The notes under the pieces: generated by a model
Database searches by the model: none
Seen by the model: only the letters and a program-made list of their open reading frames with translations
Told to the model about the DNA's origin: nothing
Assembly (NCBI RefSeq): GCF_028737315.1
Contig: NZ_JAQZAO010000005.1
Location: 434,001 to 498,000 of the forward strand
Origin: Actinomycetospora lemnae
Lineage (GTDB): Bacteria; Actinomycetota; Actinomycetes; Mycobacteriales; Pseudonocardiaceae
Direction: 5' to 3'
Length of the DNA stretch: 64,000 bases
Shown here: positions 54,271-63,916 of the stretch, one piece after another
Layout of the letters: each line of letters starts with the position of its first letter
How positions within the stretch are numbered: the stretch's first letter is position 1
Position numbers and translations under genes: made by a program

Positions 54271-56205
54271 GTGCTCGCGATCCGCCCGTTCCGCCGGCTC
54301 TGGGCGGTCACCGCGGTCGCGAGCTTCGGCGACTGGCTCTCCCTGCTCGCCCTCACCGCGCTCGCCACGCAGCTGACCAGCGGCTACCAGGCCCAGAGCT
54401 TCGCGCTCGGCGGTGTCGTCGCCACCAAGCTCCTGCCCGCGCTGTTCATGGCGCCCCTGGGCGGGGTGCTCGCCGACAAGTTCGACCGGCGCACGGTCAT
54501 GGTCACGTGCGACGTCCTCAAGGCGGCGCTGTTCCTCTCGATCCCACTCGTGGGCTCGCTGTGGTGGCTGTTCGCGGCGACGTTCCTCATCGAGCTCTGC
54601 GCGCTGGTCTGGATTCCGGCCAAGGACTCGTCGGTCCCCAACCTGCTCAAGCGCACCGACCAGATCGAGACGGCCAACCAGCTCTCGCTGGTCATGACCT
54701 ACGGCGTCGCCGTCATCAGCGCCGCCGGGGCGTTCGCGCTGATCTCGAAGTCGGGCAACATCGCGGGCTGGCACCCGAGCCCGACGACCACGGTCTACCT
54801 CGCCCTCGTCGTCAACGGCCTCGCCGCGCTGCTCACCGCGGCCACCGTCGCCTTTCGCATCCCCGAGATCTCCGGGCGCAGCGCCGAGCGCCGCGAGGCC
54901 GCGCCGGGGCTGCTCGCCATGCTGCGCGACGGCGCCCAGTTCGTCACGACGACGCCGCTGATCCGGGGCCTCGTCGTCGGCATCGTCGGGGCGTTCGCGG
55001 CCGGCGGCGCGGTCATCGCCAGCGCCCGGCTCTACGCCGCCAGTCTCGGCGGCGGCGACGCGGCGTACTCGGTGCTGTTCATCGCGCTGTTCACCGGGCT
55101 CGCGCTCGGCATGGCGCTCGTGCCGCGGTTCTCCCGACGGATGCCGCACCACCGCCTGTTCGGCGTGGCCATCGTCGGCGCCGGGACCTCGCTGCTCGCC
55201 GTCGCGGTCGCCTGGCACCTCTACCTGGCGCTGCTCACCGTCGTGTTCGTCGGCTTCTTCGCCGGCACCGCGCTGCTCACCGGGCTGACGATCATCGGTG
55301 CTCAGGTCGAGGACGCCGTGCGCGGGCGGGTGGTCGCGTTCGTGCAGTCGATCGTGCGGGTGGACCTGCTGGCGTCGATGTCGGTGGTCCCGCTGCTGGT
55401 CGGGCTCGTGCAGTCGCGGACGCTGACGCTGTTCGGGCAGCCCGCGCAGGTCGACGGCACACGGTTCGTGCTGCTCGGCGCCGGGGTCGTCGCGGCCGCC
55501 GTGGGCGTGCTCGCGTACCACCAGATGGACGACCGTCGCGACCGCACGATCCTCGCCGACGTCAAGCGCGCCCTGCGCCGCAGCCGCCACGGCGAGCCCG
55601 GGCTGCTCGTCGCCGTCGAGGGCGCCTCGCGGCACGACACCGCCGAGCAGAGCGAGCGGCTCGTGCGCTGGCTCGGCGAGCAGGGCGCCGACGTGGTCCT
55701 CGCCGGGCGCAGCGCCGCCGACGCGGCCCGGGCGGCCGCCGCCGTCTCGGCGAGCGGGCTCGACGGCCAGCGCGCCAGGGCCCTCGTCGCCGCGGCGGTG
55801 CGCGCGGACGTGCTCGCCCACGAGGTGCTGCCCGCCCTGCGCGCCGGGCGGGTCGTGGTCATCGAGGGCTGCCTCGACTCGCCGCTGGCCCGGGTCGGCG
55901 ACGAGCTCGACGCCGCCGACCTGCAGCGCCTCGGTGCCTGGGCCACCGGCTCGCTGCGCCCCGACGTCACCGTCCTGCTCGACCGCGACCCGAGCCACGA
56001 CCCCGCGCCGGTCACCGGCGGGATCGTCGACGCCTGGCAGGTGCAGCGCACCCTCACCGAGATGGCCGCCGCCGACCCCGGTCGCTACGTGCGCGTCGAC
56101 GCCGACGGCGACCCCGCCGACGTCGCGGCCCGCGTGCGCGACCTGCTCGCGCCCCTGCTGGCGCGCGTGCTGCCCGCGCCCGAGGGCGCGCGGACCGGCA
56201 GCTAG
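54271..56205 (+). CDS. MFS transporter fused to a decayed thymidylate-kinase domain
   Basis: A 644-residue two-part protein at the usual tmk position (topA-tmk-holB). Residues 1-425 are a 12-helix MFS domain ('GDWLSLLALTALATQL', 'GVLADKFDRRTVMVTCD'). Residues 440-635 align with dTMP kinase, but the P-loop (450-457) reads 'EGASRHDT' instead of EGxDGxGKS/T, and the DR(Y/F/H) motif reads 'VIEGCLDSPLARVG'. 'PDVTVLLDRDPS' still marks the family. dTMP phosphorylation is not expected, so a separate tmk must exist. GTG at 54271 is the only canonical start before helix 1; it has no Shine-Dalgarno. Confidence 0.83.
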   Translation: MLAIRPFRRLWAVTAVASFGDWLSLLALTALATQLTSGYQAQSFALGGVVATKLLPALFMAPLGGVLADKFDRRTVMVTCDVLKAALFLSIPLVGSLWWLFAATFLIELCALVWIPAKDSSVPNLLKRTDQIETANQLSLVMTYGVAVISAAGAFALISKSGNIAGWHPSPTTTVYLALVVNGLAALLTAATVAFRIPEISGRSAERREAAPGLLAMLRDGAQFVTTTPLIRGLVVGIVGAFAAGGAVIASARLYAASLGGGDAAYSVLFIALFTGLALGMALVPRFSRRMPHHRLFGVAIVGAGTSLLAVAVAWHLYLALLTVVFVGFFAGTALLTGLTIIGAQVEDAVRGRVVAFVQSIVRVDLLASMSVVPLLVGLVQSRTLTLFGQPAQVDGTRFVLLGAGVVAAAVGVLAYHQMDDRRDRTILADVKRALRRSRHGEPGLLVAVEGASRHDTAEQSERLVRWLGEQGADVVLAGRSAADAARAAAAVSASGLDGQRARALVAAAVRADVLAHEVLPALRAGRVVVIEGCLDSPLARVGDELDAADLQRLGAWATGSLRPDVTVLLDRDPSHDPAPVTGGIVDAWQVQRTLTEMAAADPGRYVRVDADGDPADVAARVRDLLAPLLARVLPAPEGARTGS

Positions 56206-61710: not shown

Positions 61711-61784
61711 GCCGCCTTAGCTCAGTCGGCCAGAGCAACGCACTCGTAATGCGTAGGTCGAGGGTTCGATTCCCTCAGGCGGCT
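61711..61784 (+). tRNA. tRNA-Thr (anticodon CGT)
   Basis: A 74-base cloverleaf: acceptor GCCGCCT paired with AGGCGGC plus discriminator T; D arm with AGCTCAGTCGGCCAGAGC; anticodon stem ACGCA/TGCGT around CTCGTAA (anticodon CGT); T arm with AGGGTTCGATTCCCT. CCA is not encoded. An integrase gene begins 95 bases downstream, so the 3' end is the probable attachment site of the island. Confidence 0.95.
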
Positions 61785-61789
61785 CCGCA

Positions 61790-61830: not shown

Positions 61831-61878
61831 GATCTTCGTGGCCTCTCTCGTGGCCTCCGGGGGTCGTACTGTCCTCCC

Positions 61879-62745
61879 ATGGCCTCGTCTCGGTCACCTC
61901 TGAAGCGCCCTCGCGGCACGATCGGCTGGCTCCCGAGCGGGTCCGCACGGGTGAAGGTCTACGCCGGGCTCGACCAGGTCACCGGCGAGAAGCTCTGGTT
62001 GCGTGAGACCGTCCCCGCCCGCGCGACGCGCCGTGAAACCGAGCGGGAGGCCGAGAAGTCCGGACGCGGCTGCTCAACCAGGTCGACGAGCGCCGCAGCC
62101 CTCGCACCGAGGCTACGGTGAACGACCTCCTTGACCGGTGGCTCGAGGTCGTCGACATCGACCGCAAGACTCGAGTCGGCTACGTGGGCAAGATCGAGAA
62201 GCACGTAAGGCCGGCCATCGGGCGCGCCGCAGTCGGTCGAGTGCGGGCCGAGACCGTCGAGGGCCTCTACGCCGACCTCCGGCGCTGCCGAGACCACTGC
62301 GACCGCCGAAACTACGTCCAGCACCGGACCGACAGCGAACACGTCTGCGACGAGCACAGCGCCCGCCGACAGTGCGCTAAGACCGCTGGCGGGGAGGAGG
62401 CGCACTGCAGGTGGTGCAAGCGGGCGTGCGCGATCCACCAGTGTCGCCCGCTCGCCGCTGGCAGCATCCTCGTCGTCCACGCGATCTTGAGCGGTGCGTT
62501 CGCACGCGCTGTTAGGTGGGGGTGGGTCGCGGTAAGCCCGATCGATCAGACGGAGCCGCCACCGCGGCCGCGACCGAACCCCGACCCCCCGAGCGCGGCT
62601 AATGCGGCTGCAATCCTGAATGAGGCGTGGAACAGCGACCTGGATTGGGGCACGCTTATCTGGCTGCTGATGACTACCGGTTCCCGCCGCGGAGCGGTGT
62701 GCGGACTGCGTTGGCCTTGTCTCGACCTCGAGTCGAGTGATGGCA
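61879..62745 (+). pseudogene. int: Tyrosine-recombinase integrase, frameshifted and 3'-truncated
   Basis: An actinobacterial tyrosine integrase. Residues from 61879 ('RPRGTIGWLPSGSARVKVYA', then 'VTGEKLWLRETVPARATRRE') form the arm-binding domain. At about 62055 the frame shifts: the sequence 'gagaagtccgg' lacks one G compared with the 'EKVRTRLLNQVDERR' expected, and the homology continues in another frame ('VNDLLDRWLEVVDIDRKTR'). A core-binding domain with a Cys/His-rich insertion ('CDRRNYVQHRTDSEHVC') follows, then the start of the catalytic domain ('MTTGSRRGAVCGLRW', holding the first catalytic Arg). Homology stops near 62740, before the HxxR and Tyr motifs. It cannot be functional. Confidence 0.85.
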
Positions 62746-63916
62746 GCGCGGGCGAATGGCGAGCCAGTTCCAGAGTCGTTCGACCACCTAAAGAAGTACG
62801 TGGCCGAAGCTATTGCTGAGATGACCAGCGGAGGGGCGCACCCCGTGTTGTTGGTCAACTCAGACAAGAGCGTTCAGGACCAGCAGGAGTCGCTGGATTT
62901 CGACAAAGGATCGGTGTGGCGGATACTCGTTGGAGGCACCAAGCTTAGCCGTGGCTTCACCCTCGAAGGGCTCACAGTCTCCTACTTTCGTCGTAAGGCC
63001 GGTCAGGCCGACACGCTAATGCAGGCTGGTCGATGGTTCGGTTTCCGAGAAGGCTACCGTGACCTCGTTCGCCTCTACATTCGCAGGGACCACAAGGTCG
63101 ATTTGTACGAAGCGTTTGAGGCTCTGTTGCTCGACGAGGAGGCATTTCGCGACGAGCTAGCCAAGTACGCTGGCTTCGACGAAGATGGTAAACCGATCCT
63201 CGAACCTCGGCAGATCCCACCCTTGGTCAGTCAGCATCTACCATGGCTGAAGCCGACTGCGCGGAACAAGATGTTCAATGCCGTCGTCAAGGCGCGCGCA
63301 TCGGTCGGCGCATTCCATCAATTGTCTTCGGTTCCCGAACGCACCGAAAAGTCAAAGCATGCGGCCAACCTGAGACAGGTGATAATTCCTCTTCTGGCAG
63401 TTGTCGGCAAGCCCGTAGCGTTGCCCTACGTCGATCCGACGGACGGTCAGACCAAGCAGCAGCGCGCGCGTGTGGGCCTACTCGGAGCGAGCGAGTTCCT
63501 CGCGCTGTTCGATAAGATGACTTGGCACGCCGACTACGACACCGTGATCAAGCCGCTTAGGGAATTCGTGGCGACGGCAACCCAAAGAGGACGCATAGAG
63601 GACTGGGCCGTCGTGTGGCCGCAACGCCAAAGCCCAGGCCGGATGGTCGCGATCGATGAGTTGGGTCTAGACGCGCCCGTGTGGAGACGCAAGCGTCGTC
63701 AACCGCCCCGGATAGATTTCACCGGCGAGAACAAGCGGAATATCCTGTCGGCCGGTGCGATCCCGGAGGGCGCTGAGGTGGAAACCCTTGGGCACAGCGA
63801 GACGCGTAAAGCGGGAAGACGTCGTTGGGCTCGTGTCGCTCAGGGTCCCGAACAGATCGATCCGGAGCCGGCGCGAACTAACCCAGTACGGGGTTGTGAT
63901 CGCCGACCCGGCATAA
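62740..63916 (+). pseudogene. Z1-domain superfamily II helicase, 3' portion joined to the integrase
   Basis: From about 62740, in another frame, the sequence encodes the Z1 helicase C-terminal half: 'HPVLLVNSDKSVQDQQ', 'ILVGGTKLSRGFTLEGLTVS', 'QADTLMQAGRWFGFREGYRD' and 'LVRLYIRRD' are the diagnostic blocks. The N-terminal helicase half is missing. The frame stays open from 62671 to the window edge, but protein-like sequence moves to the next frame near 63781 ('REDVVGLVSLRVPNRS', 'ELTQYGVVIADPA', stop at 63914-63916), which suggests a second frameshift. Z1 helicases are known from predicted restriction-like systems with MutL/Hsp90-type ATPases, AIPR and PD-(D/E)XK proteins. This copy is a remnant; partner genes may lie to the right. 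Confidence 0.8.

Follow-up and report, generated by a model that had tools for sequence, protein, structure and literature searches.

How did the front of a mobile-element integrase come to be joined to the back of a restriction-type helicase beside a tRNA-Thr gene of Actinomycetospora lemnae? The fusion lies near the right end of the 64,000-base stretch analysed here (the window; bases 434001-498000 of the 519,660-base contig C26), in a genome of 6.06 Mb assembled in 30 contigs at 99.7% completeness and 2.56% estimated contamination; 21.7 kb rightward of the window was also covered (L002, L003, L077). We favour, at a probability of roughly two in three, the reading that a deletion produced the fusion and that it is the remnant of a dead gene. 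The restriction-type system of this helicase is probably anti-phage.

The sequence-only reading had the integrase ending abruptly near 62740 with the helicase directly behind it, and comparison with other genomes bears this out. In particular, integrase homology stops at 62731-62737 in comparison with six congeners, and helicase DNA homology begins at GTGATGGCAGC, position 62737, for three of four relatives among the matches listed. G+C content (GC), read in 500-base steps, goes from 72-74% left of the tRNA to 69-70% across the integrase and is down to 57-60% from 62.75 kb on, so that the steep fall coincides with the junction (Table 1).

Table 1. Features of the fusion and of its right flank, in window numbering (L077 coordinates added where available).
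Feature	Position	Strand	Evidence or remark
tRNA-Thr (CGT)	61711..61786	+	ARAGORN; Rfam tRNA 72.5 bits; integration site
Integrase N-terminal segment, first frame	61834..62058	+	tblastn, intact G007 integrase residues 18-89, 71% identity
Integrase middle segment, second frame	62055..62732	+	tblastn, G007 residues 89-315/489, 72% identity
Integrase/helicase fusion point	62732..62737		End of integrase homology, start of helicase homology
Helicase 3' portion	62737..63807	+	PF10593 positions 88-224/228; alignment with 26 relatives; tblastn 72.6% to G121 helicase
Helicase end segment, next frame	63797..63916	+	tblastn G121 residues 949-983, 60% identity; translation
Protein kinase gene and gene with sub-threshold FHA and HTH matches	66.2-68.9 kb	-
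Trypsin_2-nSTAND1-WD40 protein	72.5-76.6 kb; L077:6825-10910	-
ECF sigma factor	76.7-77.3 kb	+
WD40-KAP NTPase	79.4-82.5 kb; L077:13788-16796	+

Both partners are incomplete. The integrase, compared with the intact copy of congener G007 (query, a 489-aa stop-to-stop frame), lacks its C-terminal third, with homology ending at residue 315; against the G012 integrase the middle segment covers residues 61-291 of 463 at 73% (tblastn). A functional tyrosine integrase needs a complete catalytic domain with the later R, H and Y residues. The G007 blocks HSLRH and TLRIYTAF fall in the lost part, and the catalytic domain of the fragment is thus incomplete.

The helicase half matches the Z1 profile PF10593, as the sequence-only reading had proposed, at 135.9 and 134 bits (threshold 25), at positions 87/88-224 of 228 only. 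A scan of genome contigs gave 27 loci encoding helicase relatives among 62 pattern matches. Complete relatives are about 985 aa long, and the window matches them from residue ~565 onward; specifically, its first 353 codons align with residues 565-917 of a Nocardia protein (L004). The lost half holds GYVQSGKT (192), DESD (367) and YTATP (407) in L004 numbering, while the retained half holds the GG..LSRGFT and DTLMQAGRWFG blocks picked out in the sequence-only reading; we take these to be helicase motifs V and VI. Near 63800 the homology changes frame with ~16-20 residues missing, and it is closed by a stop codon at 63914-63916; the first helicase frame stays open to 64242, past the end of homology.

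The closest competitor invokes two events, the integrase being truncated by one rearrangement and the helicase fragment brought in by another, with the whole module never present. We consider this unlikely. It costs more steps, integrase and helicase are codirectional, and what survives is the 3' end of the final gene of the helicase operon, the outcome expected of one deletion.

That the junction is an assembly chimera of unrelated sequences is more improbable still, even though the number of contigs and the estimated contamination, the GC change right at the junction, and the absence of the integrase-helicase fusion from every other genome searched all speak for it. Orphan halves would be expected to persist in so complete an assembly, and none was found. 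The helicase N-terminal half has no match in this genome, with a query that detects five of five known carriers tested and gives weak matches in G007; nor was the orthologous integrase C-terminal piece found in this genome, whose two full-length integrase paralogues reach 60% and 55% over the C-terminal part, with a further fragment at 31%. The low GC suits the helicase relatives (codon positions 0.66/0.43/0.70 here, against 0.63/0.43/0.64 in L004), both half genes are also broken within their own homology, and the contig spans 520 kb. We take the fusion as real.

Divergence bears on the age of the remnant. Over the 353 codons, nonsynonymous divergence (dN) from L005, L006, L007, L008 and L009 is 0.199, 0.225, 0.276, 0.220 and 0.384 for the window and 0.207, 0.239, 0.289, 0.234 and 0.353 for the intact L004 protein, the remnant being lower in four of the five comparisons. 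Synonymous divergence in the window is saturated (1.9 to infinite), so that no date can be assigned beyond saying that inactivation is recent on this scale. Retained function would give the same dN pattern, and a reading of the locus as a decoy therefore keeps a very small share of the probability.

The deletion proposed in the earlier interpretation is the likeliest reading; its suggestion that the rest of the defence system may survive just right of the window finds no support, as no module part was found there. A GHKL ATPase gene lies beside the helicase in 25 of the 27 relatives; near the window none matches at 1e-3, the weak matches (E 0.016 and 0.70) being at chance level. A restriction-fold (DUF4420) nuclease gene, present in 23 of the 27, was not found in this genome with PF14390, though the controls of that search were silent too, nor nearby by tblastn, whose DUF4420 queries did match control locus L078.

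Proteins of relatives L004 and L009 match MzaB, MzaC and MzaD of the anti-phage system MZA (NCBIfam, PADLOC), but far under the NCBIfam cut-offs (score/cut-off in bits: MzaC 262/1500 and 269/1500, MzaB 102/850, MzaD 64/420 and 72/420). The window helicase reaches 85.7 bits against the MzaC equivalog cut-off of 1500, with full-length relatives at 261.9 and 269.3. An AIPR gene is part of the MZA system, and none was found here or linked. Among prokaryotic MORC/paraMORC restriction systems, the third operon type (Iyer, Abhiman and Aravind 2008, PMC2292703) pairs a superfamily 2 helicase, whose C-terminal motif reads DThhQXuRhFG, with a GHKL ATPase and a nuclease of restriction fold; cytosine methylase and Vsr are often present as well. 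DTLMQAGRWFG of the window helicase fits that motif; no ATPase or DUF4420 nuclease gene of that type was found near the window. The CglI/NgoAVII restriction systems (PMC4267653) have their own partner, a PLD-B3 nuclease, whereas the conserved partners seen among our relatives are the GHKL ATPase and DUF4420 nuclease; no search was aimed at PLD-B3 nuclease.

The setting is that of an integrated element. The same integrase follows tRNA-Thr in congeners G006, G007 and G012, and ARAGORN finds no second tRNA across 56001-85660. Actinobacterial integrating conjugative elements carry a tyrosine integrase at a tRNA 3' end, tandem arrays occur, and some closely related integrases target tRNA-Thr (PMC3218068, in the sections consulted). 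In a congener, the element includes genes for a TrwC relaxase and for a type IV secretion coupling protein, whereas the window element is decayed; at 82.5 kb, a 105-142-base scrap matches DNA internal to that congener's relaxase frame. The Trypsin_2-nSTAND1-WD40 and WD40-KAP NTPase genes share the tRNA-Thr island and are candidates for a STAND/KAP-type role in conflict or defence, the latter having only weak QatA and other matches in PADLOC. A 27-base sequence resembling a tRNA or tmRNA 3' end lies at 70467-70493 (L002:14467-14493); 16 of its bases are identical to the tRNA-Thr T-arm, neither ARAGORN nor Rfam reports a tRNA there, and it is possibly an attachment-site scar.

Contig C13 of this genome carries two further copies of the tRNA-Thr 3' end. 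Behind the good one (65578-65622, 91%) come 54 bases that resemble the beginning of the window's element; to the right of the weaker one (~54985-55029, 34/45 bases; 89% to the G015 copy), two ~2.1-kb blocks, 4 kb apart, are collinear with congener G015 at 91%. The copies point to tandem accretion at this tRNA and, together with the G015-like blocks, to a tandem island of at least ~44 kb, provided that C26 and C13 adjoin, as we infer. The locus itself is most likely an ordinary pseudogene fusion involving a known restriction-type helicase.
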